Virus record (IMG/VR): IMGVR_UViG_3300027759_000347
Coordinates: 1-28,068 of that record
Strand: one strand, 5' to 3'
Length of the DNA: 28,068 nucleotides
From: a virus
Every line of letters begins with the position of its first letter. The first letter of the stretch is position 1. Made by a program: the position numbers and the translations under genes. Shown one piece after another: positions 2,841 through 18,139 of the stretch. The notes under the pieces are model-generated. The model was not told where the DNA came from and did not search any database. It saw only the letters and a program-made list of their open reading frames with translations.

Positions 2841-4946
2841 TCAATACTCCACTGGGTGTTGCACCATGTCGTACAGGTCCGTCGGTCGGGCCTTTTCGAA
2901 CTCTTCCATTCGGTCCTCCACGACGAGCACTGTCACGAATCTAACCTTTCCGTTTACCTTCTTCGATGCTCTGGTCTTCATCGTGGCGTATCCCAGCATC
3001 TTGAGCGCTTTGCGGATGGGATACCTCGGCGATGAGCGCGGGATCTTCAATACCTCCCTCGCCACATCGGGTGCGATCTCTCGCAGCTGGTCGTACAGCC
3101 CATTCTCCGATACGACCTCCTTCAGTCCCATGTCGGCAAAGATATCCCGCACGACCACCACGAGGTTCTCGCTGCGGGTCATCGTCGCGTCGACCATGTC
3201 GAGCTTGGCTGTGGTCTTGGGTGGTGCCGCCTTGATGTTGAACTTCGAGATGTCGCGCTTGAGCAGATATTCGTACACGTGGCTCTGGTTCTCGCTGTCT
3301 GTCACCCACAGCGCGAACTCCTTGTAGTAATCGGAACTATGGGGCCGGGATTCCGACCACATGACAAAGTACCGCCGGTCTTCCGCCGCCATGGACACTG
3401 CGTCCTTGTGGTTCGTTAGCATAATGGCTGCGCATATGTTCGGAATGGGGTACCGCGACACGTTCTTCTCGTTTACCATGATCTCGTCGGGTGGCGACGA
3501 TAGCAATGGCTTTAGCTGGTTCGACAGCTCGCGTCTCGCCCCGGTCCAGATTTCTTGAATGATGATGAGGTGCTTGTGCGCCAGCCATTCGTTGAATGAC
3601 GATGACAGGGAGTCCGCCCCGATTTCCGACACGTTTTGCTTGCCAAAGCATGCGCGAATCGGCAAGAGCCAAAGGTCCTTTCCGACGCCCTCGTACTGGG
3701 ACCCCATGAGGACCGCATGACCGGGCTTAACAGTGGGCTTCTGTACACAATACGCCAGCCAGTTGAGCAGATGCTCGACCTCCTCCTTGGCGTAAAACGC
3801 TTCGATGTGCTCCAGCCAGTAAGTGACGTCGCCAGCCTTGGGGTTCAACTCCGTCGGTCGCCACATGTTGATCATGTCGTCCACGATCGGCGGGTATCCT
3901 GGAAAGTACGTAAGGCTCTTTTTGATCGACGCGTTCGGCCATGCCGTGTACACGTTCATCGCACGGCGCATATTGCGACCCATGACCGCATCGAAACGCT
4001 CCTTGTCGAACACGTCCCTCGTCATCACATTGACCATGCGGTTGATGTTGGTCACATAGTGCCAGTCGATGAACATGTCGTTTAATTCGTCGTCGGTCAG
4101 CTCTTCCGCATCGGTCGGCTTTGACTGCTTCTTGTCGAATCCCTTCCGGAAAGCCGATTCCACCATTTCGGGGATCTGCCGCAAAGTGTCGCCTTGATAA
4201 TCCGGCGGGAACAGCAGGGTCATGGCCCGCACAATGCGTTCGGCGTCCATTCCAAGGGCCACGAGAGCCCCCGCAAGGGAAAGGGTGGGGTAGTGCGTCC
4301 CCTCGCCAGCCAATAGGCTTTCCAATGTGCCCCCGTCCACGTCGAGCGCTACAATGGTCTGGATGATTCGCAGGTCTTTCGCGGTCAGCATAGGCAGCTG
4401 GTCGACGACGTTAAGCAGCGGACGCCCGACCCATTGGTACTCTTTGCCAGTCTTGCGGTGAGTGCTGGGCGGAATGAAGGTAAAGCGACCAGTCGACAAG
4501 AACTCGACCGCTGGCTGATTCCGTCCGTGTACCATGAAGTTTCGACTCTTCTTCATGTCTTTATCGTCGCGCGGCACTTTGTAGAACAGGCCGATCCCCT
4601 TCGATCCGAAACGACCGCAAGGGGACGGAAACAGGTACTGGATAGCTGCCACCAAGCTTGGGTGGTCGACATCCAAGCAGACTATCCGGTGATCGGGATC
4701 AAAGCTCTTGCCCATGGCGAGACCATAAGACGATGGTGCGCCCATTTGGCCGTCCGTGTTGCGCCATGTGGCCAGATCGACCTTCGATGGCACATTTGCG
4801 CCATACTTCTGGTGGCCCTGAGGCGGGATGATCGTCCCGCCATTGACCCGCACAGGGAACACGGAAAGATTCGCTTCGGCATAGCTCGAATATATATCAG
4901 AGGCGGTCTCGGCGGTCGGTTTAGGACTATCTAACCTTGTGGTCAT
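2841..4946 (-). CDS. Primase-polymerase / DUF5906-type helicase, phage replication protein (701 aa)
   Basis: Probable bifunctional replication protein that primes and unwinds phage DNA. The N-terminal part fits a Prim-Pol (archaeo-eukaryotic primase) domain: an acidic pair in C-L-D-V-D-H (D92, D94), then V-E-F-L-S-T-G-R-F-T-F-I-P-P-S-x-H (147-163) before G-K-E-Y-Q-W, as in this family. The C-terminal part fits the DUF5906/D5-like superfamily 3 helicases: Walker A G-S-Q-Y-E-G-V-G-K-D (414-423, K422), a hydrophobic strand ending in Q-E (459-464), T-N-H-K-D (510-514) as sensor and R523-R524 as possible arginine finger. Asp after the Walker lysine is, as I recall, usual for DUF5906. The ribosome site (GAGATGCACC-ATG) is weak. 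It is the first gene after the palindrome-rich block. Confidence 0.92.
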   Translation of the reverse strand: MTTRLDSPKPTAETASDIYSSYAEANLSVFPVRVNGGTIIPPQGHQKYGANVPSKVDLATWRNTDGQMGAPSSYGLAMGKSFDPDHRIVCLDVDHPSLVAAIQYLFPSPCGRFGSKGIGLFYKVPRDDKDMKKSRNFMVHGRNQPAVEFLSTGRFTFIPPSTHRKTGKEYQWVGRPLLNVVDQLPMLTAKDLRIIQTIVALDVDGGTLESLLAGEGTHYPTLSLAGALVALGMDAERIVRAMTLLFPPDYQGDTLRQIPEMVESAFRKGFDKKQSKPTDAEELTDDELNDMFIDWHYVTNINRMVNVMTRDVFDKERFDAVMGRNMRRAMNVYTAWPNASIKKSLTYFPGYPPIVDDMINMWRPTELNPKAGDVTYWLEHIEAFYAKEEVEHLLNWLAYCVQKPTVKPGHAVLMGSQYEGVGKDLWLLPIRACFGKQNVSEIGADSLSSSFNEWLAHKHLIIIQEIWTGARRELSNQLKPLLSSPPDEIMVNEKNVSRYPIPNICAAIMLTNHKDAVSMAAEDRRYFVMWSESRPHSSDYYKEFALWVTDSENQSHVYEYLLKRDISKFNIKAAPPKTTAKLDMVDATMTRSENLVVVVRDIFADMGLKEVVSENGLYDQLREIAPDVAREVLKIPRSSPRYPIRKALKMLGYATMKTRASKKVNGKVRFVTVLVVEDRMEEFEKARPTDLYDMVQHPVEY

Positions 4947-5453: not shown

Positions 5454-6191
5454 TTATGCCGCCTTGGCGTCCGGCTGGGCTCCTTGGCCCTTGAAGACCA
5501 CCTTGTGGCCATACCGGATGTCTTGTCCAGCTGCGATCAGTGTGCGGACCTTCTTGGCGATGTTCATGCGCTTCATGCCGTTGTTGACATGCGCCCACTT
5601 CGACCAGTCGATGCCGTTCTCCGTGGCGAACTGCAGGAGAGCTTCGACGTGAAGGGAGGGGCGACCCTTGCCACCCAAGCGGGTCATGAACATTGCGGTC
5701 ATCCACTGGTCGACACCGTCGGCGCAGCCTTGGCCCGAACCACCAAGGGCCTTGCGCTCAGCGTAGATCTGCTTGTAGGTCTCGCGAACGACGGAGTTGG
5801 GGAGAGCCATCTCCTCTTCGTCTTCGAGGGCTTCGACGTCGTCGAACTCCTGCTCGTCCTCTTCGACGACCGGGGCATTGGCTTCGAAGTCGTCCTCGTC
5901 CTGCTCGTCCTGCTCGACTTCGTCCTGCTCGTCGAACAGGGAGTGTGCGGCTTCGGTGACGAACAGGCGGCGATTCTGGCCCGCTTCGTCGGTGATGGCG
6001 AAGTCTTCCACGAGTGCCGTGCCCTTGATGCCGCCACGGACTTCGAGGAAGCCCTTCTTGATCAGGGTGTTGATGTTACGGGAAAGGGCCGACGGGGCCT
6101 TGCTCTCAAGGCGGACCGTGTTCGGCACGATGTCGCTGTTGTTGATGGCCTTCGAGAGGATGACGAGCTGGGAGTCATTGAGCTTGATCAT
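5454..6191 (-). CDS. Winged-helix protein with acidic linker, candidate phage regulator (245 aa)
   Basis: Exact function unknown. Residues 1-55 (L-N-D-S-Q-L-V-I-L-S-K-A-I, then S-A-L-S-R-N-I-N-T-L-I-K-K-G-F-L-E) look like a winged helix-turn-helix with a recognition helix and a beta wing. Residues 87-128 are almost all Asp and Glu, a flexible acidic linker. Residues 132-245 form a separate basic domain (W-M-T-A-M-F, N-G-I-D-W-S-K-W, N-N-G-M-K-R-M-N) similar in pattern to the C-termini of uncharacterised alphaproteobacterial phage and plasmid proteins. The start at 6191 has GGAG 7 bases upstream. It adjoins the divergent repeat-bearing region, so it is the best local candidate for the protein that binds those repeats. 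That link is an inference. Confidence 0.8.
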   Translation of the reverse strand: MIKLNDSQLVILSKAINNSDIVPNTVRLESKAPSALSRNINTLIKKGFLEVRGGIKGTALVEDFAITDEAGQNRRLFVTEAAHSLFDEQDEVEQDEQDEDDFEANAPVVEEDEQEFDDVEALEDEEEMALPNSVVRETYKQIYAERKALGGSGQGCADGVDQWMTAMFMTRLGGKGRPSLHVEALLQFATENGIDWSKWAHVNNGMKRMNIAKKVRTLIAAGQDIRYGHKVVFKGQGAQPDAKAA

Positions 6192-6242: not shown

Positions 6243-6271
6243 ACCTTACCACAGGCCGAATGGGGCGTCAA
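6243..6271 (-). promoter_or_regulatory. Leftward promoter, TTGACG-N17-TAAGGT, for the regulator gene
   Basis: On the minus strand the -35 is TTGACG (6266-6271) and the -10 is TAAGGT (6243-6248), preceded by TGG; the spacer is 17 bases. It is back to back with the rightward promoter at 6347-6375. Confidence 0.75.
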
Positions 6272-6283
6272 GCTATTACGTTT

Positions 6284-6314
6284 GATGTCGCATATGTGAC
6301 AAGATGTCGCATAT
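6284..6314. repeat. Diverged repeat pair between the divergent promoters, related to the 17-base array
   Basis: GATGTCGCATAT occurs at 6284-6295 and again at 6303-6314, 19 bases apart, with TGTGACAA between. The second copy with its flank (GTGACAAGATGTCGCAT) differs at two positions from the unit of the array at 6951-7093 (GTGACAAGGTGCCGCAT). It lies between two promoters, so a protein bound here could control both. Confidence 0.6.
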
Positions 6315-6346: not shown

Positions 6347-6375
6347 TTGACACTCGCATTGACGACGTGTTACCT
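6347..6375 (+). promoter_or_regulatory. Rightward promoter, TTGACA-N17-TTACCT
   Basis: The -35 is TTGACA (6347-6352) and the -10 is TTACCT (6370-6375), with GTG just before and a 17-base spacer. An inverted repeat TTGACG (6359-6364) and CGTCAA (6382-6387) brackets the -10. It drives the two small rightward genes. Confidence 0.78.
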
Positions 6376-6407
6376 TGGTGGCGTCAACAGATGACGGAGA
6401 TGAAGAG

Positions 6408-6647
6408 ATGACCAGCGATATCAGCACCAAGCGCATCCTTAGGCTTATCGGCGACGATCGCCTTTCACTGCGCAAGGACCCATCGGGTCACTGGTGTTTC
6501 GTGTTCGACGCACCAAGTGCCGGTGTGCACGAAACGATGACCGTTAATGTTTACCGGCTTAACCAGATGCCCCTCGAAAACTGGGTCAATGAAGGGGTTT
6601 TCTTCTCCACGAAGTGCTCCTTTAAAGTAGGCTTCGAATTCGCATAA
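6408..6647 (+). CDS. Hypothetical small phage protein (79 aa)
   Basis: Product not recognised. The start at 6408 (M-T-S-D-I-S-T-K-R-I-L) has GGAG 8 bases upstream. A longer frame beginning at 6375 is rejected because it would start inside the -10 element. The protein is a mixed alpha/beta type with aromatic strands (H-W-C-F-V-F-D-A-P, then E-G-V-F-F-S-T-K-C-S-F-K-V-G-F-E-F) and shows no membrane segment or catalytic motif. It is the first gene of a two-gene unit between the divergent promoter region and the 17-base array. Confidence 0.72.
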   Translation: MTSDISTKRILRLIGDDRLSLRKDPSGHWCFVFDAPSAGVHETMTVNVYRLNQMPLENWVNEGVFFSTKCSFKVGFEFA

Positions 6648-6665
6648 ACCACACGACGGAGATGC

Positions 6666-6950
6666 ATGATGAACCATAACCTCTGGGCCAGCATGATCGG
6701 TGCTGAAGCTCGCTTTAAGCTCACTGGCTCGCATGACGACGCCATGAACCTGGAATATATCGAGGGTCGTTATTACGACGAGGAAGACAAGGCCAGAAAG
6801 CAGTGGGACGCGCTGCCGGAAGGCCATCTTAAGGACTTCGCTTGTGTTGTTGCGGACGACACTTGCCGCGACATCGGCATTCCGAGACAAAACATGCTGT
6901 CATGGTTCCTTTATGCTCTCGAGACGTTCGAGATGTTATTAGAACAGTAA
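6666..6950 (+). CDS. Hypothetical acidic phage protein (94 aa)
   Basis: Product not recognised. Two adjacent ATG codons (6666 and 6669) can serve as start; GGAG is 4 bases before the first and 7 bases before the second, so the second may be the real one. The protein is acidic and helical, with E-G-R-Y-Y-D-E-E-D-K-A-R-K-Q-W in the middle and F-L-Y-A-L-E-T-F-E-M-L-L-E-Q at the end. The stop codon at 6948-6950 is immediately followed by the first base of the 17-base repeat array. Confidence 0.72.
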   Translation: MMNHNLWASMIGAEARFKLTGSHDDAMNLEYIEGRYYDEEDKARKQWDALPEGHLKDFACVVADDTCRDIGIPRQNMLSWFLYALETFEMLLEQ

Positions 6951-7093
6951 CATGTGACAAGGTGCCGCATGTGACAAGGTGCCGCATGTGACAAGGTGCC
7001 GCATGTGACAATGTGCCGCATGTGACAAGGTGCCGCATGTGACAAGGTGCCGCATGTGACAATGTGCCGCATGTGACAAGGTGCCGCATGTGA
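6951..7093. repeat. Tandem array of eight 17-base repeats plus a partial ninth (iteron-like)
   Basis: The unit is CATGTGACAAGGTGCCG. Copies 1-8 run from 6951 to 7086 without gaps and are followed by CATGTGA. Copies 4 and 7 have T for G at position 11; all others are identical. There are no spacers, so it is not a CRISPR. Nothing here is credible coding sequence, because 17 is not a multiple of three and the minus-strand frames through it are artefacts. The array lies between a stop codon and the -35 of the packaging promoter (7113). It could be a replication iteron array, a partition or packaging site, or a multi-copy operator. Confidence 0.95.
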
Positions 7094-7112
7094 TATTCGG
7101 TCTGAACCATAT

Positions 7113-7141
7113 TTGCGCAATGCTGGCATGTCGTGCTATTC
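7113..7141 (+). promoter_or_regulatory. Rightward promoter, TTGCGC-N17-CTATTC, for the packaging genes
   Basis: The -35 is TTGCGC (7113-7118) and the -10 is CTATTC (7136-7141), preceded by GTG; the spacer is 17 bases. The -35 is weaker than in the other promoters, so it may need an activator. It starts 20 bases after the repeat array. A 9-base inverted repeat has one arm in the spacer (7121-7129) and the other at the small-terminase start codon (7165-7173). Confidence 0.62.
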
Positions 7142-7164
7142 TCTCCTAAGGGAGCCATAACGGA

Positions 7165-7782
7165 ATGCCAGCACTTAAAGACGTTCGCAAAGAAGCATTT
7201 GCGCTTGCCGTTGCGCGTGGTTCGCAGCAATCCGCTGCTTACGCCGAAGTTTGGCGCGGAAACCGCAAGAACACGACCCTCGCCGTTGCTGCTTCCGCAT
7301 TGGCTCATGAACCCGCCGTTGCGAATCGCATTGCGGAAATTCAAATGCAGATCGCCACGAGGACCGAAATCACCGCTCAACGCGTGTTGGAAGAGCTGGC
7401 GAAGATTGGCTTTGCCTCATACGGCGACTTTCTCAAGCTGGACGAGAACGGAAGGACGACCGTCGACGTGGCGTCGTTGACGAAGGACCAGCTTGCGGTC
7501 ATTTCCGAAATGGAAATCAACACGTCGGAAGACGGAAAGCAGCGAATCAAGGTCAAGCTTCACGACAAGCGCGCCGCGCTGATGGACATCGGGAAGCATC
7601 TCGGCATGTTCCGCGAAAAGATCGAGATTTCCGGACCGAATGGCGGCGCTATTCAGGTAAAGAAGCGCATCGACGTGAACCTGCTTGATCAGGAAGAGCG
7701 GAATCAATTGAAGGACATCCTTCTGTCAATGGCAGAACGACGCCGCGATGCGGAAATGAAGACGATCGAACACGAGGACTGA
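7165..7782 (+). CDS. terS: Terminase small subunit (205 aa)
   Basis: DNA-recognition subunit of the packaging motor, which binds the phage DNA and directs the large subunit to cut it. The N-terminal part (residues 9-60, A-F-A-L-A-V-A-R-G-S-Q-Q-S-A-A-Y) fits the helix-turn-helix of the Terminase_2 family. The middle pattern R-V-L-E-E-L-A-K-I-G-F-A-S-Y-G-D-F and the later K-L-H-D-K-R-A-A-L-M-D-I-G-K-H-L-G are typical of phage small terminases. Length is usual for the family. It starts at ATG 7165 behind an AACGGA/GGGAG purine stretch. The gene directly precedes the large subunit with only two short genes between. The start codon is part of an inverted repeat with the promoter spacer. Confidence 0.9.
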   Translation: MPALKDVRKEAFALAVARGSQQSAAYAEVWRGNRKNTTLAVAASALAHEPAVANRIAEIQMQIATRTEITAQRVLEELAKIGFASYGDFLKLDENGRTTVDVASLTKDQLAVISEMEINTSEDGKQRIKVKLHDKRAALMDIGKHLGMFREKIEISGPNGGAIQVKKRIDVNLLDQEERNQLKDILLSMAERRRDAEMKTIEHED

Positions 7783-8069: not shown

Positions 8070-8264
8070 GTGAAACAATGCGAAACCATTCCGCTTCACT
8101 ATGTTGCAGCCGATATTTCGGACAGGCTGCGCAGCCTCGACCCCGTTTGCGACATTAATTGGAAACGCACCACTTCCGACGCTGCCAAGCTTCTGGTCGA
8201 CATGTCGCGAGAGCTGGAAATGCTGCGCATTCGGGTCGAGGGGGAACCGAAACATGGCGCTTGA
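8070..8264 (+). CDS. Hypothetical small helical protein (64 aa)
   Basis: Product not recognised. The frame is open further upstream, into the preceding gene. A GTG start at 8070 is preferred because AAAGG lies 8 bases before it and it begins 19 bases after the previous stop. The product is helical (A-A-D-I-S-D-R-L-R-S-L, then A-A-K-L-L-V-D-M-S-R-E-L-E-M-L-R-I). Its last codons overlap the large-terminase start by 11 bases, so its translation may feed into that of the large subunit. The start is uncertain. Confidence 0.55.
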   Translation: MKQCETIPLHYVAADISDRLRSLDPVCDINWKRTTSDAAKLLVDMSRELEMLRIRVEGEPKHGA

Positions 8265-9897
8265 CGAATCGATGCTCGACGAGCTTCTGGCCGACGCCGA
8301 TCCCGATCAGCTTCTGTACGAGCTGGACAAGGCGGAAGCGGAAGAGTCGCTGTCCGAATTCACCAAGCAAGCGTGGCATATCATCGAGCCGGGACAGCCT
8401 TATATTCACGGTTGGCACATAGACTTCATTGCGGAACACCTGGAAGCTATTTCCGACGGCGTCGAGATGGAAGACGGAACGCCCTATAACCGGCTGCTGA
8501 TCAACATTCCACCGGGCACGATGAAGAGCCTCCTGACCAACGTCTTCTGGCCCGCATGGGAGTGGGGACCGCGCAACATGCCGCACCTGCGCTATGTATG
8601 CGCCGCGCACAAAATCGAGAACCTTTCCGCTCGCGATTCCCGCAGAATGCGCCAGCTGATCACTTCCGACTGGTACATCAAGCGCTGGGGCGATCGGGTC
8701 AGCTTAGCACGTGACCAGAACGAGAAGCTAAATTTCGTGAACAATGCGCAGGGCTTCCGCATCGCAACAGCCATCACCAGCCTGACCGGTATCCGTGGCG
8801 ACAGGGTGATCATCGACGACCCGCATTCCGTTGATTCCGCTATGTCGGAAACCATGCGCGAATCGGAAGTAACCACGTTCCTCGAAGCAGTGCCGACCCG
8901 ACTGAATAACCCGATTTCCAGCGCCATCGTGGTGATCATGCAGCGCTTGCACGAGAACGACGTTTCGGGCGTCATCCTCGACAAAAAGCTGGGTTACGAC
9001 CACATCATGCTGCCCATGCGGTTCGATCCCGACCGGGCCATGCCGACCAAGCTTGGAATGGAAGACCCGCGCACAGTCGACGGCGAGCTGTTGTTCCCGG
9101 CGCGATTTCCGCTCGAAGTGGTGGACCGCGACGAATCATCGCTTGGCCCTTACGCTTCCGCTGGCCAATTCCAGCAGCTGCCCAAGCCAAGGGGCGGCGG
9201 CATACTGAAGGACGAATGGTGGAAGCTCTGGCAGGAAGAGGGGTTCCCGCCGCTCGACTACATCGTGGCATCGCTGGATACCGCTTACACTAAAAAGAAC
9301 GAAAACGACCCCTCCGCAATGACAGTCTGGGGCGTCTTCAGCCGGGACACCGTGGCGCAAGCCAACAGGCAGCTTGACCGGGACGGAACGGCGTACTACG
9401 TCGAGCGCACTTACCACCAGCAACACCCGAAAGTCATCTTGCTTTGGGCATGGGAGGAGAGGCTCGAACTGCACGAGTTGCTGCTGAAGATCGAGGAGAC
9501 CGCAAAGAAGTTTCAGCTGGACGATCTGATCATCGAGAACAAGGCGGCGGGTCACTCGATCGCACAGGAACTCCGGCGCTTGCATTTCAATGCCAGCTTC
9601 GGGGTGCGGCTTCTCGACACCGGGGCGCAAGACAAGGTGGCAAGGCTGTATTCCGTGCAGCACTTGTTCTCGGAAGGACTGGTCTACGCTCCGGACCGGC
9701 CATGGGCGGACAAGGTAATCCAGCAGTGTTCGGCATTCCCCAAGGCGAAGCACGACGATCTGGTCGACACGGTCAGTCAGGCGATGCGGTATTTGCGCAC
9801 CTCGGGTCTGCTGCAACGCCAGAAGGAAGTACAGGAAGACATTGACCAGCAGATGCGCCACACAGGTGCGGTCCCGCCGCCCCTTTACCTTGCGTGA
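8254..9897 (+). CDS. terL: Terminase large subunit (547 aa)
   Basis: ATP-driven DNA packaging motor and nuclease that fills the procapsid through the portal. The ATPase domain shows a Walker A of the form P-P-G-T-M-K-S (86-92) and a Walker B V-I-I-D-D-P (185-190). The nuclease domain (RNase H fold) shows S-L-D-T-A-Y with D342, I-I-E-N-K with E428 and K-H-D-D-L-V-D-T (D501/D502), the usual acidic triad. Length fits the Terminase_6 / T4-like group. The start at 8254 is chosen over a longer frame because GAGGGGG lies upstream and M-A-L-D-E-S-M begins the conserved acidic N-terminus. It overlaps the preceding small gene. Confidence 0.97.
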   Translation: MALDESMLDELLADADPDQLLYELDKAEAEESLSEFTKQAWHIIEPGQPYIHGWHIDFIAEHLEAISDGVEMEDGTPYNRLLINIPPGTMKSLLTNVFWPAWEWGPRNMPHLRYVCAAHKIENLSARDSRRMRQLITSDWYIKRWGDRVSLARDQNEKLNFVNNAQGFRIATAITSLTGIRGDRVIIDDPHSVDSAMSETMRESEVTTFLEAVPTRLNNPISSAIVVIMQRLHENDVSGVILDKKLGYDHIMLPMRFDPDRAMPTKLGMEDPRTVDGELLFPARFPLEVVDRDESSLGPYASAGQFQQLPKPRGGGILKDEWWKLWQEEGFPPLDYIVASLDTAYTKKNENDPSAMTVWGVFSRDTVAQANRQLDRDGTAYYVERTYHQQHPKVILLWAWEERLELHELLLKIEETAKKFQLDDLIIENKAAGHSIAQELRRLHFNASFGVRLLDTGAQDKVARLYSVQHLFSEGLVYAPDRPWADKVIQQCSAFPKAKHDDLVDTVSQAMRYLRTSGLLQRQKEVQEDIDQQMRHTGAVPPPLYLA

Positions 9898-10170: not shown

Positions 10171-12447
10171 ATGGCGATGACACCCGGCCTTTCCCCGAAC
10201 CTACGTCTGGTCGACGACGAACCGGCCCCCCAATCCAGCGAAGATGTCATCATCGAGATGGCGGAAGAGCCGTCGGAGCGCAAGGTCACGGACGACAAGG
10301 GGAATGTGCTCGAAATCGAGTATCCCGACGGCAGCATCGCCATCTCGTTGGATGGTAAGCCCATCGAGCGCAACGACGACACGAAGGACCGGAACGACTG
10401 GTTCCGAAATCTGGTCGACGATATCGACGACACCCTGCTTTATTCAGTGGCGAATGATCTGCTGAACGGCATCGACGACGATATCGAGAGCCGACGCGAA
10501 TGGACGGAAGACCGCGCTTCCGGCATGAAGCTGCTTGGCCTTAAAATCGAGCTTCCAGCCCTGCAGGGCGCTACCGACGGCGCACCAGTCGAGGGAATGT
10601 CGAAGGTTCGGCACCCGCTTCTGCTGGAGGCAGTCTTGCGGTTCCAAGCCAATGCGCGATCGGAGCTTCTTCCGACCGACGGACCGGTGAAAATCCGCAA
10701 CGACAACAATAATTCGACGCTGGAAGACGACCACCTCTCCCATGCACTCGAACAGGACATGAACCACTACCTGACCGCAGTGGCGAAGGAATATTACCCC
10801 GACACTGACCGAATGCTCCTCATGCTGGGGTTTGGCGGTACGTCATTTAAGAAGGTGTATTTCTGCCCATTGCGGAATCGCCCGGTAAGCGAGACGGTGG
10901 ACGCGGACGATCTGGTCGTTAACAATTCGGCCACGGATCTGAGCAACGCCAAGCGTATCACGCACCGCATCCAGATGCGCCCTTCCACTGTCAAGCGCAT
11001 GCAAATTCTGGGCGTTTACCGCGACATTGACCTCGGCACCCCTTCGCCCATGAGCCTCGATTCTATCAAGCGGGAAAAGGAATCCCAGCAGGGTGTCAAG
11101 CCAGAGACTATGAACCCGACCGACCGGGACCGCGAAATCTACGAGTGCTATTGCGAGCTGGACCTGCCGGGGTTCGAGCACAAACGCAAGGGCAAGGAGA
11201 CGGGCCTCGAAATCCCTTATCGGGTCACGATCGACGTGTCGTCGAAGGAAGTGCTGTCTATCGTTCGCAATTACAACGAGGACACTAAAGACCTGCCGGA
11301 ACCACGCCAAGTGTTCGTGAAGTACACGTTCATTCCGGGGTTCGGGTTCTACGACATCGGCCTTCTGCACGTTCTGGGTAACACCACCAACGCCATCACG
11401 GCGGCGTGGCGCGAATTGCTCGATGCCGGAATGTACGCTAACTTCCCGGGGTTCCTGTATAGCGAATCGGCTATGCGCCAGAATACCAATATCTTCCGCA
11501 TTCCTCCCGGCGGCGGAGCACCGATCAAGACTGGCGGTATGCCGATCAATCAGGCCATTATGCCGCTGCCGTACAAGGAGCCTTCCGCTGCACTGATGTC
11601 GCTGGTCGAGAATATGGCCCAGACTGGCATGCGGGTCGGTGGAACGGCGGAGATGGCGGTAGGGGAAGGTCGTGCGGACGCCCCGGTTGGAACGACGCTG
11701 GCCCTGATCGACCAAGCGACGAAGATCTTGAATTCCGTCCACAAGCGCATGCACACCTCGCAGGCGGAAGAATTCCAGCTTCTGCTCGAATGCTTTAAGG
11801 AAAATCCGGAAAGCTTCTGGCAGCGCAACCGCAAACCAGCGTACCCATGGGACGAGCAGACCTTTATGAAGGCGCTCGACAGTTGCGACCTTGTGCCACA
11901 GGCCGACCCCAACACTGCCAGCCAGACGCAGCGCGTGATGAAGGTCATGGCGCTGAAGCAGTTGGCGTCGAGCAATCCTGGATTATACGACCCTATTGCG
12001 GTCGATATTGCGGCCCTGCAAGCCATTGGGTGGAATAACCCCGAACAGTTCATGGCCCCCATGTCTGCTCAGGGCAAGATGCCACCCGAAATGCAGGAAA
12101 AGATCGCCAACACCCAGATCAAGAAGCAGGAAGCGGATTCTCGGTCGAAGTTGGCGGAAGCCAGAGTGGCCGAAATCATGGCGAAGATTCAGGCGGGCAA
12201 TGCTCAGCAGCAGTCGGGTAACCCCGACGAGTTGTCGACTGAGGACCGGCTTAAGTTTATGGACCTCGACGTTCGGGTGGCGGACATTAAGCTCGACGCT
12301 CAGAACCGGGCGGCGGACCGCGAATCTCGCGAAAGGCTCGCCCTGCTGAAGCTGATCGAGCAGTTGGTGGCGGACCCCTCGAAGATCGAAATCGCCCAGC
12401 AGTTGGTGTCGGGTGATCTGGTGGACAAGCTCGAAAACGAAGGCTGA
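10171..12447 (+). CDS. Portal protein (758 aa)
   Basis: Forms the dodecameric portal ring at one capsid vertex, through which terminase packs DNA and to which the tail attaches. The length and pattern fit the ~750-residue podovirus portals: an acidic N-terminus (about 1-100), the central core, then F-R-I-P-P-G-G-G-A-P-I around residue 444, M-R-V-G-G-T-A-E-M-A-V-G-E-G and an alpha-helical tail from about residue 640 (A-N-T-Q-I-K-K-Q-E-A-D-S-R-S-K-L-A-E-A-R), a likely barrel helix or coiled coil. The start at 10171 has AGAAGGA 10 bases upstream; a second ATG at 10177 is also possible. It follows the large terminase as usual and is followed 4 bases later by the giant protein gene. Confidence 0.93.
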   Translation: MAMTPGLSPNLRLVDDEPAPQSSEDVIIEMAEEPSERKVTDDKGNVLEIEYPDGSIAISLDGKPIERNDDTKDRNDWFRNLVDDIDDTLLYSVANDLLNGIDDDIESRREWTEDRASGMKLLGLKIELPALQGATDGAPVEGMSKVRHPLLLEAVLRFQANARSELLPTDGPVKIRNDNNNSTLEDDHLSHALEQDMNHYLTAVAKEYYPDTDRMLLMLGFGGTSFKKVYFCPLRNRPVSETVDADDLVVNNSATDLSNAKRITHRIQMRPSTVKRMQILGVYRDIDLGTPSPMSLDSIKREKESQQGVKPETMNPTDRDREIYECYCELDLPGFEHKRKGKETGLEIPYRVTIDVSSKEVLSIVRNYNEDTKDLPEPRQVFVKYTFIPGFGFYDIGLLHVLGNTTNAITAAWRELLDAGMYANFPGFLYSESAMRQNTNIFRIPPGGGAPIKTGGMPINQAIMPLPYKEPSAALMSLVENMAQTGMRVGGTAEMAVGEGRADAPVGTTLALIDQATKILNSVHKRMHTSQAEEFQLLLECFKENPESFWQRNRKPAYPWDEQTFMKALDSCDLVPQADPNTASQTQRVMKVMALKQLASSNPGLYDPIAVDIAALQAIGWNNPEQFMAPMSAQGKMPPEMQEKIANTQIKKQEADSRSKLAEARVAEIMAKIQAGNAQQQSGNPDELSTEDRLKFMDLDVRVADIKLDAQNRAADRESRERLALLKLIEQLVADPSKIEIAQQLVSGDLVDKLENEG

Positions 12448-12451
12448 TAAT

Positions 12452-15400
12452 ATGACCGACCACCGCAAGCGCGTTGCAAACGCTATTCGTATTGCGAAGG
12501 AGGTCCATGGTAAGAGGCTCCTGCAGGACCAGTACCCGACGCACTATATGCCGAATGTCGGAAGGCAAGTCATGGCAGGTGGTGGACCGGCGGAAGCCCC
12601 GTCGGACGATTCTATCGAAATTCCCGCCGTGTATGACGAGATGGGAAATGTGGCGGTTCCGGCCCAACGAAAGGTCGTCGACGAGGGATATCGCCAGCCG
12701 TTGGGCGAACGAATCAAAGAGGGAATTTCCAAAGGGTTTGGTGAACGCCGACTGGGTATGAGCGAGGAAGACCAGAGGCGCTACGACCCTACTGGAATCG
12801 TGCAAAACGTGTTTGCCGCACCCGTAGATTTTGCTCTTCGCGCCCCCGGGGCGGTCGTAGGTGGTCTATCTGCCGCAGGAGCTGGTGTTTACGGTAAGAT
12901 CCCGGGCGTTGATGAAACCCAGACCAACAAATTACAGCGCGATCTGAGGGTTCTTGGCGACGTCGGCATGATTGAAGCTGGGAATGTGCGCTCGAAAGCT
13001 CCGACGGACGTTTCGTCAATACCACGCTTCGGTGAATTGATCCCCCCGGAGGCATCAAACGCTCTTAGAATATCCAGAGAAGTTAAAGAGCGCCCATTCA
13101 TAGATATGGAAGGGTTATCGAGGACGCCCGAACAACTTCAGACACTCCCTGAACGTCAAGTGGTAAACTCCGACGCCACGCAAGGCGTTTCAGAACGTCA
13201 AAACCCGCTTGGTGTGGCGGTTGAACCACTGGGCAATCTTAACTTTCGCCCTTCCATAACAACGTCGGAACTTAAGGGACCGGACGTTCAGAAAGTTGAA
13301 GATTTTATTAACCAAATCAAGGGCCGACCGGGTGTTAATGAAGACGTTATTAACCGCATCCGAGAAATTAATGCCCCGGCTGGTAACGAAGTTTCTCGCT
13401 TGTCAAAAGAAGAGTTTATTCGGTCTTTCCCGCCGTCTGAATATAAAAAGGTAGACCTAAAAGGGGCCGCTGGTGTAGAAGGTGAAGAGCGTCATTTTAG
13501 AATTTTAGCTGAAAATGAAGCTGCTAATAGAGAACCTAGTGACGTTCTTCTTCAAGGTATGGTTGACAATTTGCATTTTCCGTATAACGAGACTACACGA
13601 AACCAAGCAGAACAGTTAGCCAAAGTTTTAATGATGGAACAGGATTTTAACCAACTACCCCCTGACTTTTTAAAAACGTTAGAAGCTAACGGCATCAAAA
13701 ATTTCGACGATATTGACACTTTTGCTGATTCAATCACTAAGTTGGATGAGGAACGAATTTATCGCGAAATAATGGAATCCGAACGTTCGCTTCAAAACGA
13801 TTATGGTTTTGACAACATTCAACGTCTTGTAAAAGAACCAAACAACGACCGTTATTTTGAAATAGGGTTAGTTCATCCAGAATTTAAAGGAAAATACCCT
13901 CATTTTCCACATTATGTTTCGGAAAAGGATGGACTCATTGGTCACTTCAGAGGACAATTTCTTGACCAAAACGACCACCTTCTGTCTAGCGATGTAAACA
14001 ATTCCGGCGTCACAGCAGTTCCTAATTCGGCGGTAATTGAAGAAATTCAATCGGACATTCAGAAAGGCGTGAAACAAACGGGTATCACCAAAAACGTACA
14101 CGCTACTACGTTTAAGGCTGCTGTACAACACGCCCTTGAAGGTGGTGCGCAAACGGTTTATTATCCAACTTCGAAGATGATTTGGACGCAACGTGGGGGC
14201 GATCCTAAAGCGTTTAATAGCATATATGATAAAGAAATAATTCAGCATGGATTAAACCCCCTGCTTAAAATCCCCGGGGTCGTTGCGTCTAAAGTCGGGG
14301 ACGATTATATTAAAATCGACTTCACCCGTGACGCTATCGACCATATCCTAAAAGGAGGGGGTCAACGTTACCCGGGTCTTAAGGACGGTGGACCGGTGAA
14401 CGCTTCTACAGATGTTCCCTCCGACGGTACCACTGAAGTTCCCGCCGTATACGACGAGATGGGGAATGTGCTCGTACCCGCCCAGAGGATCGTAATCGAC
14501 GAGGGTTACCGCCAGCCGTTGGGCGAGCGAATCAAAGAGGGCATATCCAAGGGATTCGGCGAACAGCGTCTCGGTATGCGCGAAGAGGACCAGAGGCGCT
14601 ACGACCCCACCGGACTGGTCCAGAATATGTTTGCCGCACCCGCAGACCTGTTCCTGAGAGCGCCCGGGGCGGTCATTGGGGGTCTTTCGGCCCTTGGTGC
14701 GGGTGCTTATGGCGCGCTACCGGGCGTCGACGAAACGCAGACCAACAAATTACAGCGGGATCTGAAAGTCCTTGGCGACGTTGGTATGATCGAGGCCGGA
14801 AACGTGCGCCCGAAAGCCCCGACGGACGTTTCGTCAATTCCGCGATTCGGCGAAGTACTGCCCCCGGAGGCTTCGAACGCTCTTAGAATATCCAGAGAGG
14901 TCAAAGAGCGCCCGATCATCGACATGGAGGGGTCGTCAAGGGCTCCAGACACGTTCCTGAATGCCCCTGAACAGCCAAGACCCCCCATTAGCGAGGGTTT
15001 TGCGGCCCCAGAGCGTCCGTCTCTGGCGCAAGAAACGTACAGAGAGCCCCAGTTACCCGCCGAACGGCCCCAAGCGCCCCCCGAGACCCCCGTCGCACCC
15101 GTAGAGGCACCGGGGGGAAATATCAACATGTCCCGCCGTAGCTTCTTGCGGGGCATGGGTGCTACCGCAGCATCTACGATTATGCCAGAAGGTGTCGTTT
15201 CGGCTCTGACGGAAACGGTGAAACCCACCGCTGTTGCCCCCGCCGTTTACGACGCGTCCAAAGTGTCTTCGCTGATGAGCGACATGCTTGGGCAAAGGGT
15301 TCCCGTATTAAATAACGAAAACATATCGAGGCACGTGAACCCTCAAGAGTTATCTAGATCCATTGAAGAGTATCCGTCTATATATGGTGCCAGCGAAACG

Positions 15401-18139
15401 GCTGAAGGAACTTTAAATCCGAATATTTCTAGATGGGAAATGATAAAGCCAGAAAACAGCTATATACTTGCGGAAAATTTCGCTAGCAACGATCCAGCAA
15501 TATTAGGGATGTCAAAAGACGCCGTTAGTATTCTTAAGACAGAAATGGAGGGCAAGCTTGGTTATCAAATACCTGATGAGGACTTTAACAAGATTCTTGG
15601 TGAACAGTTAAAGCCGCAAATTAGCCTTCACGACCTTAAACACGACGTGCATTTGGTGTCTGAAGAAGGTCTTGATCATGATATGATTTTCGACGGCATA
15701 AGAGCAAGGGCCGTAGCTGCTGCTCACTCTATTGAGAAAAAGCCGACGGCTTCAAAAATGATAGAAGCTCTGGGACAAGTTACACCAGAGGATATTCTTG
15801 AGAAAGTGTATGGTATTCCTAAGGACAGGGTTCAGTCAATATTGGACGAACCTATTGTGGAGTCTTATGATGATACTAGGACCACTACCCTTCGGGATCA
15901 CTTTAATGCCATTTATGAAGAATCTCTTGATTGGTGGGAAGATTTAGATCTGTCCGATAAGAGAGCCATTAGAAAAGCGTGGAACGACGAAGCAAAGAAG
16001 ATAAAATCCGGGTTAGAAGAAAAGCCCGAATTAACCAGCCAGACGCCCGCCCCAGTAGAAGACGTTAAGCCTTACATGCTGGACCAAAATCTGGCCGACC
16101 AAAAAGCGCTTGAAGCCCCCGCAGCTCCTGCCCCCAAGACCCTCGACGATCTGAGGCTTGCCCAAGCCCAAGCGAAGCAGGCGTTCGAGGACGCCAAGGT
16201 AGCTGTTCGGTCGGACAACAAGAATCCGGAAACTAGAGCGCTTGTCGCTCAGCGCCAAAAAGAGATGATGGCCGCGACGAAGGAGCTGGAGAAGGCGGAA
16301 TCTAACCGCGAACCCCGTTCTGAGGCCACTCCCAATGCCGCGCCCAAGGTCGTCGAGCCCGAATATGTGCGCCGGGTGTCCGACTTTGGCCTTTACAGCC
16401 ATGCGGCGGAGGTTGCGGCCAAGGCTAAACAGGCGGGCAAGCCCGAAGACCTTATCACTTGGCTGAAAGCACAGCCGGGTGTCAAAATGGAAGAGCTGGA
16501 GTCAGTGGGGGCCGTTACCCCGTCCGGCAAGTTTAATCCGGAATTCGCTGGCGGGGTCAAGACGATGACCCCGAAGGAATTGTCCGACATCTTCAACGAG
16601 AAGACCCCCGACCCCAAGCTTATGAGGCGCACTGAAACTAAAGTAATGTACCCGCGCAATACTCAAGAGCTGGCCGATCTAGCTATTGAAAACCCTAGAG
16701 TATGGGACAACTACTTCGGGTTTACTTTAGGCACTCATCGTGATTTTAATAAAATCGACCTTAATAACATTCTTCAAAGTGAAGAAGGCCAGCGCGCACT
16801 GAGCGAAGTGTTTAATTTCACGTATGGAAAAATCGAGGTTCCCGGCGGTGCCATATATGGTCCATCGTCTTGGGAAGATTATACTACTCGTGGCGGAAAA
16901 AATTACGAAGAGATCCCGATTTATCTTGAACCGACACCAGAGAACCCACCAACGAAATTTCAAACGGTTGGTGGTTTTGCAGACAACCAAAAGTTCAACA
17001 CTAGGGAAGAAGCCGAAAAGTACCTTGAAGACGAGAAAGCGCGATCCCTCGCGTATTATGCGGACGACCCCCAAATGCAACAGTTTGTTGAACAAGGGTA
17101 TAAAAATACATACATTGTAGAATTTGACGACCCTAGTTACCGCAGTCCAAACTTGACCGAATTTGGTCATATGAAGGATGTCCCGAATAACATCGCTTGG
17201 ATCCGCAAAACGGAGCATGATTCGCCTTACGGTGGCGTGGCATACCGGATGGAAGAATCCCAGTCGGATCTGGCCCAAAGGGGGCGCGATACGGGCTTCA
17301 ATATGAACCCGGAGGAAGTGGAAACCGCAAAGGCAAGAATAGAACAGATAGAGTCGCAGATAGATGAGTTAGATAAAAAGTGGGTGCAATATTATAGTGA
17401 TTCTGTAGAAAAAGGTACTTACAACACCCCCGAATATTTGAAAGACGAAAAGAAGTTTCTTAAAGAACAGGATGGTTTAAGTAAAAAACAGGACAGGATC
17501 CGCCGCCACATTATGAATTCGGAACAAGGGACTTCACTTCCAAACTTTCCATATGTTAAAGAAACACAGCAGTGGACGGACCTTACCGTTAAGCTCGCCC
17601 TGATCGACGCCGCCAATGGTGGCTTCGATTCTGTCCAGTTCATCAAGGGCGACACTAACCGCGAGCGATATCAAGAGGAAGGAAAAGACACCGGGTATCA
17701 CTACGACGTTAACATTCCGTCGTCGATAAGCCGAATTCTAAAGACCCTTGACCCGTCGGTCAAACTCGAAACTATTAAAGTGGAACCAACAATTGATTCT
17801 CGCACTTTTTCTCTAATTAACAGAATTAAAGATAGAAATGCAGACATTGAAGAAAGAATGAGGACACATAGAGCGTATTTAAACAGACTGGACCCTTCTA
17901 GTAGAGAGTATGGTGTTGCCGAATCCATAATGTCCGACTACGAACAGGGTTTGTATGACGGTAACGCCGCTCTAAAAAAGCTCACCACCCCGCTGGAATT
18001 GTGGTCAGTCAGAATGACGCCCAAGCTGCAAAGAGCTATTCAAAAGGGTCTGCCCAAGTTCAAGGACGGGGGTGCGGTCAACCCCGGGGCCATTCGTGGC
18101 ATGACGGTAGACGAGTTGCAGGAAGCGTTAATGGGGTAA
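12452..18139 (+). CDS. Giant polyvalent-type virion protein with internal duplication (1895 aa)
   Basis: Probable virion or ejected protein; function unknown. It starts 4 bases after the portal stop, with AAGG 8 bases upstream. Layout: a basic N-terminus (1-50); unit D1 (56-221); an AT-rich region with I-E-E-I-Q-S-D near 530, ending L-K-D-G-G-P-V (643-649); D1 again (662-827) with about 21 substitutions in 166 residues and no gaps; a proline-rich linker (about 835-890); a twin-arginine-like S-R-R-S-F-L-R-G (894-901); an unknown AT-rich region (about 930-1180); a coiled-coil stretch near 1230-1290; and a large region with M-E-E-S-Q-S-D near 1601, ending F-K-D-G-G-A-V (1870-1876). The E-E-x-Q-S-D signatures match large polyvalent-protein-associated domains of phages and conjugative elements. 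Its position between portal and scaffold fits an internal virion protein. Confidence 0.9.
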   Translation: MTDHRKRVANAIRIAKEVHGKRLLQDQYPTHYMPNVGRQVMAGGGPAEAPSDDSIEIPAVYDEMGNVAVPAQRKVVDEGYRQPLGERIKEGISKGFGERRLGMSEEDQRRYDPTGIVQNVFAAPVDFALRAPGAVVGGLSAAGAGVYGKIPGVDETQTNKLQRDLRVLGDVGMIEAGNVRSKAPTDVSSIPRFGELIPPEASNALRISREVKERPFIDMEGLSRTPEQLQTLPERQVVNSDATQGVSERQNPLGVAVEPLGNLNFRPSITTSELKGPDVQKVEDFINQIKGRPGVNEDVINRIREINAPAGNEVSRLSKEEFIRSFPPSEYKKVDLKGAAGVEGEERHFRILAENEAANREPSDVLLQGMVDNLHFPYNETTRNQAEQLAKVLMMEQDFNQLPPDFLKTLEANGIKNFDDIDTFADSITKLDEERIYREIMESERSLQNDYGFDNIQRLVKEPNNDRYFEIGLVHPEFKGKYPHFPHYVSEKDGLIGHFRGQFLDQNDHLLSSDVNNSGVTAVPNSAVIEEIQSDIQKGVKQTGITKNVHATTFKAAVQHALEGGAQTVYYPTSKMIWTQRGGDPKAFNSIYDKEIIQHGLNPLLKIPGVVASKVGDDYIKIDFTRDAIDHILKGGGQRYPGLKDGGPVNASTDVPSDGTTEVPAVYDEMGNVLVPAQRIVIDEGYRQPLGERIKEGISKGFGEQRLGMREEDQRRYDPTGLVQNMFAAPADLFLRAPGAVIGGLSALGAGAYGALPGVDETQTNKLQRDLKVLGDVGMIEAGNVRPKAPTDVSSIPRFGEVLPPEASNALRISREVKERPIIDMEGSSRAPDTFLNAPEQPRPPISEGFAAPERPSLAQETYREPQLPAERPQAPPETPVAPVEAPGGNINMSRRSFLRGMGATAASTIMPEGVVSALTETVKPTAVAPAVYDASKVSSLMSDMLGQRVPVLNNENISRHVNPQELSRSIEEYPSIYGASETAEGTLNPNISRWEMIKPENSYILAENFASNDPAILGMSKDAVSILKTEMEGKLGYQIPDEDFNKILGEQLKPQISLHDLKHDVHLVSEEGLDHDMIFDGIRARAVAAAHSIEKKPTASKMIEALGQVTPEDILEKVYGIPKDRVQSILDEPIVESYDDTRTTTLRDHFNAIYEESLDWWEDLDLSDKRAIRKAWNDEAKKIKSGLEEKPELTSQTPAPVEDVKPYMLDQNLADQKALEAPAAPAPKTLDDLRLAQAQAKQAFEDAKVAVRSDNKNPETRALVAQRQKEMMAATKELEKAESNREPRSEATPNAAPKVVEPEYVRRVSDFGLYSHAAEVAAKAKQAGKPEDLITWLKAQPGVKMEELESVGAVTPSGKFNPEFAGGVKTMTPKELSDIFNEKTPDPKLMRRTETKVMYPRNTQELADLAIENPRVWDNYFGFTLGTHRDFNKIDLNNILQSEEGQRALSEVFNFTYGKIEVPGGAIYGPSSWEDYTTRGGKNYEEIPIYLEPTPENPPTKFQTVGGFADNQKFNTREEAEKYLEDEKARSLAYYADDPQMQQFVEQGYKNTYIVEFDDPSYRSPNLTEFGHMKDVPNNIAWIRKTEHDSPYGGVAYRMEESQSDLAQRGRDTGFNMNPEEVETAKARIEQIESQIDELDKKWVQYYSDSVEKGTYNTPEYLKDEKKFLKEQDGLSKKQDRIRRHIMNSEQGTSLPNFPYVKETQQWTDLTVKLALIDAANGGFDSVQFIKGDTNRERYQEEGKDTGYHYDVNIPSSISRILKTLDPSVKLETIKVEPTIDSRTFSLINRIKDRNADIEERMRTHRAYLNRLDPSSREYGVAESIMSDYEQGLYDGNAALKKLTTPLELWSVRMTPKLQRAIQKGLPKFKDGGAVNPGAIRGMTVDELQEALMG
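12617..13114 (+). repeat. First copy of the 498-base in-frame duplication in the giant gene
   Basis: This encodes residues 56-221, from E-I-P-A-V-Y-D-E-M-G-N-V to R-P-F-I-D-M-E-G. It corresponds without gaps to 14435-14932. The nucleotide copies have diverged at many third positions, so the duplication is not recent, or the copies have been under selection for the protein. Confidence 0.9.
14435..14932 (+). repeat. Second copy of the 498-base in-frame duplication in the giant gene
   Basis: This encodes residues 662-827, from E-V-P-A-V-Y-D-E-M-G-N-V to R-P-I-I-D-M-E-G. Long identical protein stretches remain, for example E-G-Y-R-Q-P-L-G-E-R-I-K-E-G-I-S and D-E-T-Q-T-N-K-L-Q-R-D-L. Each copy is followed by a region with a different composition, as if the unit were an adaptor to which other domains are joined. 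Confidence 0.9.

Follow-up and report, generated by a model that had tools for sequence, protein, structure and literature searches.

In phage phi29, the sites of the regulator p4 lie between divergent early and late promoters and are few and bent, and p4 can act as a repressor at one promoter and as an activator at the other. The locus analyzed here, in the window (the whole 28,068-nucleotide stretch of DNA under study), is similar in that a regulator would act upstream of host-type promoters in a divergent control region beside late genes; however, its sequence is unrelated, it has eight contiguous dyads, and its protein is a candidate only. With sites of the CRP type (class I/II) it shares a dyad upstream of the -35 element at distances about one helical turn apart, but the sequence is another one, and the window dyads are tandem, have a 17-bp period, and are phage specific. 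In the OR/OL clusters of lambda-type phages, 17-bp dyads are also repeated at divergent phage promoters, whereas the window units are contiguous without spacers, are eight in number, and are located upstream of the promoter, which they do not overlap. The matS/MatP site of Escherichia coli, GTGACRNYGTCAC, likewise has GTGAC/GTCAC half-sites, yet its GTGAC-GTCAC spacer is 3 versus 5 in the dyad, and matS is dispersed and chromosomal; in this comparison, the exact dyad was not found in the sampled host-type genomes. A preliminary description of the sequence had stated that no standard feature of podovirus genomes is known to match the array, which is right as regards features that have a name.

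That description offered four readings, namely, replication iterons, a partition-like centromere, a terminase recognition site, and a multi-copy operator. Our comparison favors the last, and the other three fit worse. Judging from sequence, we regard it as probable that the array is an operator array, likely of the activator kind, for a phage regulator, perhaps the protein L1.

The array and its surroundings

The leftward genes of the window include those for a primase-helicase and L1, and the rightward genes include terS, terL, and that for an SU10-like portal. The 28-kb IMG/VR record is classed as linear, and the window is therefore probably a fragment. The features are as follows.

2841 to 4946, minus strand: Prim-Pol/DUF5906 primase-helicase, leftward operon
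5454 to 6191, minus strand: L1, 245 amino acids, with a predicted winged helix (about residues 1 to 91) and the C-terminal domain L1C; candidate regulator
6243 to 6271, minus strand: predicted sigma70-type L1 promoter, proposed from its match to the consensus (TTGACG at 6266 to 6271, 17 bp, TAAGGT at 6243 to 6248)
6285 to 6312, plus strand: putative second operator place, at the L1 promoter, with a half-site and the exact dyad ATGTGACA-AGA-TGTCGCAT (6294 to 6312)
6375 to 6647, plus strand: small open reading frame (ORF) between both putative operator places; no relatives found
6666 to 6950, plus strand: small ORF whose TAA stop (6948 to 6950) abuts the array; no detectable relative
6951 to 7093, plus strand: array of eight 17-bp units and a partial copy (7087 to 7093), read from the window sequence
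6952 to 6970, 6969 to 6987, 6986 to 7004, and 7003 to 7021, plus strand: array dyads 1 to 4
7020 to 7038, 7037 to 7055, 7054 to 7072, and 7071 to 7089, plus strand: array dyads 5 to 8
7113 to 7142, plus strand: promoter of the packaging operon, predicted from sequence (TTGCGC at 7113 to 7118, 18 bp, TATTCT at 7137 to 7142)
7165 to 7782, plus strand: terminase small subunit, terS (PF03592, Terminase_2; phrog_51)
8251 to 9897, plus strand: terminase large subunit, TerL (phrog_38, PF17289)

Eight head-to-tail 17-bp units with zero gaps were found at 6951 to 7086 (unit starts, 6951, 6968, 6985, 7002, 7019, 7036, 7053, and 7070), closed by the 7-base partial copy CATGTGA; as the preliminary description had it, they are gapless and begin at the base after a stop codon. 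Six of the eight units are exact, and the single change that it had noticed in copies 4 and 7 is indeed common to both (G to T, unit position 11). Its distance of 20 bases from the array to the -35 was nearly right, with 19 bases counted to TTGCGC. Overlooked were a ninth match, at 6293 to 6309 in the divergent intergenic region before L1, and the imperfect palindrome of the unit. Written as a dyad, the array unit is ATGTGACA-N3-TGCCGCAT, 19 bp long with a 2-bp overlap with the next; because adjoining dyads have AT in common, sites of 19 bp recur every 17 bp. The sole substitution among the copies falls inside the N3 spacer, and the array units differ from the exact dyad by one right-arm change, TGCC for the usual TGTC.

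Chance can be excluded for the array, since nine unit matches at up to three mismatches were observed in the window versus 0.09 expected from shuffles; for the exact 19-bp dyad at 6294 to 6312, 1.9e-5 exact matches are expected in the window. The two putative operator places are 660 bp apart, and the core of the exact dyad lies upstream of the -35 of the L1 promoter, with 23 bp between them. A generic promoter scan of the window did not flag the packaging promoter; TTGCGC is present at the corresponding place in the relatives L009 and L089 as well. No match was obtained with the array by BLAST against phages and plasmids or in Rfam, and none was found in a pattern search of viral contigs for the tandem unit of the window.

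The plus strand of the array folded no better than shuffles, and the minus strand folded better (z, -2.9). An RNA reading of the array was rejected, as tandem imperfect palindromes should give such a minus-strand fold and there was no sign of minus-strand transcription. A general RNA hairpin was also rejected, with no extended pairing past about 9 bp across 136 sites and with A-C mismatches in the window units. None of the three minus-strand frames of the array contains a stop codon, and long spurious ORFs with CGTLSHAAPCHMRHLVT repeats consequently span it (6829 to 7380 and 6911 to 7129, minus strand). Elsewhere in the window, a segment some 170 residues long (DEMGNV..PAQR..GERIKEGISKGFGE..) is present twice in a 1,908-amino-acid ORF (12413 to 18139).

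Distribution of the dyad in relatives and other phages

The closest relative of the window phage, L009 (TerS, 78%; TerL, 84%), lacks the array unit; each of the two corresponding places in it has a different repeat, GTCAAGTTATGACG...GCGTCATTCACAGATTCGTGAGT. In L101 (TerS, 57%), one dyad, exact or nearly so, was found at the L1 promoter and one at the terS promoter, and one dyad was found between L1 and terS in L089/L103 (TerS, 56%). L089 contains a further perfect dyad, ATGCGACA-N3-TGTCGCAT (4605 to 4623, plus strand of the locus), between the primase gene and a 180-amino-acid HTH-like ORF, the latter being a possible further member of the regulon. Other repeats occupy the L1/terS region of L091/L097/L100 and of L093/L105 to L108, and the primase relatives L091 and L093 lack the dyad. 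By comparison of these loci, the L1/terS place is conserved as a presumptive control region, and part of the clade has the sequence of the site in common. Among the available sequences, the eight-fold array is particular to the window phage. The preliminary description had counted loss of the array in close relatives against a function: the array itself is indeed absent from L009 and is single copy in L101 and L089, but the underlying site is conserved.

Repeats of other kinds were seen at the same place. In L009, a 78-bp direct repeat (2256 to 2333 and 2570 to 2647; 79% identical), found at the L1 promoter and ahead of terS, holds two overlapping 18-bp dyads, a parallel case with another sequence. 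The 1.2-kb L1-terS intergenic region of L093 (= L106; about 4735 to 6000 in L106) is packed with tandem repeats of several kinds (7, 15, 23, and 28 bp), and L105 and L107 have such a region too. Exact chromosomal-type parS sites, TGTTTCACGTGAAACA, lie in this region, two per locus in L093, L106, and L107 and one in L105, as if a host ParB were used. Sites like parS were also found in further dyad contigs (L203, 2759; L301, 2076; L103, 4904; L208, 6733; L215, 754), those of L203 and L301 less than 50 bp from a dyad and that of L301 adjoining a TATAAT box.

Viral contigs were surveyed with the pattern ATGYGACA-N3-TGTCRCAT, the control having one extra spacer base. The dyad was found in 113 contigs, versus 22 for the spacer-4 control. 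A homologue of the window-type TerL is encoded in 44 of the 112 dyad loci but in 1 of the 22 control loci examined, and with a second TerL family included, 55 of 112 dyad loci contain a terminase. All dyads tied to a window-type TerL lie upstream of that gene, a good number of these TerLs being just 26 to 30% identical; when the sites are oriented in the direction of TerL, TGTGACA..TGTCGCA, the asymmetric form, is commoner than its reverse (20 to 2). No families are shared more widely among the dyad loci than terminase and portal, different TerL and TerS families have the same dyad, and several dyads per genome are scattered over kilobases. Between neighboring dyads, 17 bp is the commonest spacing; many phages have tandems, and L246 has an array of four units. 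The eight-fold array represents an expansion of a site that elsewhere stands alone or in short tandems. The exact dyad was absent from 289 genomes of Alphaproteobacteria and occurred as singletons, near chance, in 4 of 200 genomes of Proteobacteria. Pelagiphage isolates were rejected as carriers, having no site despite a close TerL. Gene-orientation classes of the sites, derived with a simple ORF caller, were uninformative, and a literature search on the dyad motif found nothing.

A cultured carrier was found in Ochrobactrum phage vB_OspP_OH (NC_070933), a complete isolate genome with six dyads at no more than one mismatch. Each lies 57 to 90 bp before an early gene (gp01, gp02, gp04, gp10, gp14, and gp15), and no dyad is near the terminase at 37.5 to 39.3 kb. 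The right arm is TGCC in three of the six, as in the array, and the phage encodes three L1C-domain proteins. Its control regions thus resemble those of the window in the dyad before early genes and in the L1C-domain proteins, but its dyads are single only and none is at the terminase. The dyads are not annotated as operators in the record, and the paper on this phage nowhere mentions operators or promoters. We judge these early-gene dyads to be the strongest single argument for putative operators over a packaging site.

Promoter geometry and a candidate regulator

The best sigma70-like promoter downstream of each of 24 dyads was taken by an automatic search, so that these promoters are predicted. 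The gaps from dyad to -35 (n = 24) were 0 in ten cases, 10 to 11 in four, and 20 to 23 in five, the remainder being 31 and a few others. A 10.5-bp periodicity was found both when all zero gaps entered as a single count (R, 0.75; P, about 0.001) and when only the nonzero gaps were used (R, 0.52; P, about 0.02); because the test was post hoc and several promoters are interrelated, the phasing is support and not proof. At the terS promoter of the window, units 2, 5, and 7 lie within 1.5 bp of helical phase, and of all eight array units, only about half come close to being in phase with the -35. The geometry points to a protein that binds upstream, on the polymerase face of the DNA, and contacts RNA polymerase, in the manner of an activator more than of a classical blocking repressor. 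The idea of the preliminary description that a multi-copy operator would help the weak -35 is favored by these data, the dyad standing single or in 17-bp tandem upstream of many phage promoters.

For L1, an AlphaFold2 (AF2) model has a winged helix at residues 1 to 91 (pLDDT, about 75 to 91) and a separate C-terminal domain. The Foldseek matches were MarR, PadR, NolR, and TubR, with high probability and weak E values (for MarR and NolR, probability near 1 and E values of just 0.02 to 0.07), and the winged helix had no Pfam match. The N terminus is accordingly predicted by the model to be a MarR/PadR-like winged helix. An L1C profile found this domain in 21 of 111 dyad loci, in 0 of 22 controls, and elsewhere only in the clade of the window. 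In 17 of the 21, the dyad is about 60 to 140 bp before the L1C start, as we read the start codons. On contigs with terminase genes, L1C runs in the opposite direction, mostly with the dyad between, the arrangement being looser in L219 and L206. The winged helix was rejected as the part that confers specificity, since its occurrence and that of the dyad do not coincide: the L1 of L009 is similar, but the repeat there is another one. In dyad phages with marine-type terminases, no L1C gene was detectable by profile search, and L1 therefore cannot be the sole binder. Because of these phages, and because L1C and not the winged helix travels with the dyad, L1 is a candidate and not an identification; that L1 or an L1C-type protein binds the dyad has, in our estimate, slightly less than an even chance.

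We propose that a dimeric transcription regulator, most likely phage encoded and with L1 as the first candidate, binds the 17- to 19-bp dyad TGYGACA-N3-TGYCRCA, whose eight contiguous copies would serve as operators upstream of the terS-terL promoter and whose further copy would act at the divergent L1 promoter. Bound upstream of the -35, the protein most likely contacts host sigma70 RNA polymerase, and this contact would activate the weak packaging promoter (TTGCGC) and control L1. The array, the dyad and its conservation, its positions before promoters, and its 17-bp tandems can be read from sequence, whereas protein binding, activation over repression, and L1 as the binder are what we infer; as in operator arrays, the dyad is a conserved palindrome of protein-footprint size in several copies, and its sites are at predicted promoters with a fixed geometry, the last being a post hoc observation. 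Several findings count against this proposal, namely, the other repeat in L009, the marine-type phages without L1C, the partial phasing, the sites in gene-end gaps and terminator-like stems, and the TGCC right half-site, which nevertheless recurs in vB_OspP_OH.

We put forward tentatively, at somewhat less than even chances, that the switch between early and packaging genes in many phages of mainly alphaproteobacterial type is set by an undescribed and widespread module, made up of an L1C protein and a 17-bp dyad that is positioned upstream of sigma70 promoters in helical register, and that the operator has grown here to an eight-unit, enhancer-like array driving the packaging genes. The timing of packaging genes in phages without their own RNA polymerase is little understood for most uncultivated groups. 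One 17-bp operator across differing terminases, a candidate regulator family, and a cultured carrier would make this question testable, and the eight-unit array is a natural test of how a promoter is tuned by the number of sites upstream of it.

Alternative functions of the array

A pac or cos-like terminase recognition site, at which TerS would bind the repeated dyads to start packaging, would agree with the place of the array directly before terS, with the position and orientation of the dyads relative to the window-type TerL (TG, 20; CA, 2), and with the wide sharing of terminase and portal. We consider it improbable, as the same dyad accompanies different TerL and TerS families, several dyads extend over kilobases in a genome and occupy two places in the window, and vB_OspP_OH has its six at early genes with none near the terminase. 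Phages might instead exploit the site of a host regulator, for example, a redox regulator of the RegA/PrrA type, whose site has been reported as a degenerate GCG inverted repeat (PMC4263372). The half-site GYGAC-N5-GTCRC fits that degenerate repeat loosely, and the dyad is found across phages of differing gene content and at promoters, among them early promoters in a virulent phage; but it is far more specific than the reported site, pelagiphages with a close TerL lack it, and its near absence from the proteobacterial genomes leaves this alternative with little probability. Somewhat less remote, and still unlikely, is the amplification of one functional site through slippage or unequal crossing-over, in which case the additional copies would be without a role. 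The site is single in relatives, eight copies were found in no other genome, and the copies are nearly identical and therefore recent; against this, 17-bp tandems recur in many separate phages, and the sole substitution sits in the neutral spacer.

Direct repeats at two places 660 bp apart near the primase-helicase operon resemble the two blocks, ori and crr, of satellite phage P4 and could be origin iterons for the Prim-Pol/DUF5906 protein. This is very unlikely, given that the unit is a promoter-tied dyad, that the primase relatives L091 and L093 lack it, that dyad loci without this primase exist, and that there is no site-specific turn of the skew. Most improbable of all is a centromere-like partition site for a ParB- or TubR-like protein: the array is tandem, the winged helix of L1 resembles TubR among others, and the region homologous to this one in L093 and L106 contains host-type parS, but no ParA, ParB, or TubZ was recognized among the proteins searched, the window contains no exact parS, and in a virulent phage the same dyad stands at individual early promoters. 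An inside-out, parS-like reading of the array, TGTCGCATATGTGACA, was rejected because it is not conserved in L089 or L101.

Some dyads of the survey lie in gaps between gene ends or within longer terminator-like stems. At four sites in L231 (4124, 4247, 4759, and 5299) and one in L284 (698), the dyad is the tip of a longer perfect stem (GGGTGCGACA..TGTCGCACCC, CCCTGCGACA..TGTCGCAGGG, and AACCCAGCGACA..TGTCGCTGGGTT); those of L231 are mostly right after stop codons and look like terminators. Motifs similar to TTGGCACGA-N-TCTTGCAT, which we take to fit the sigma54 -24/-12 consensus, were seen in both directions beside the dyad in L271, L249, L220, and L303 and are repeated in L093.
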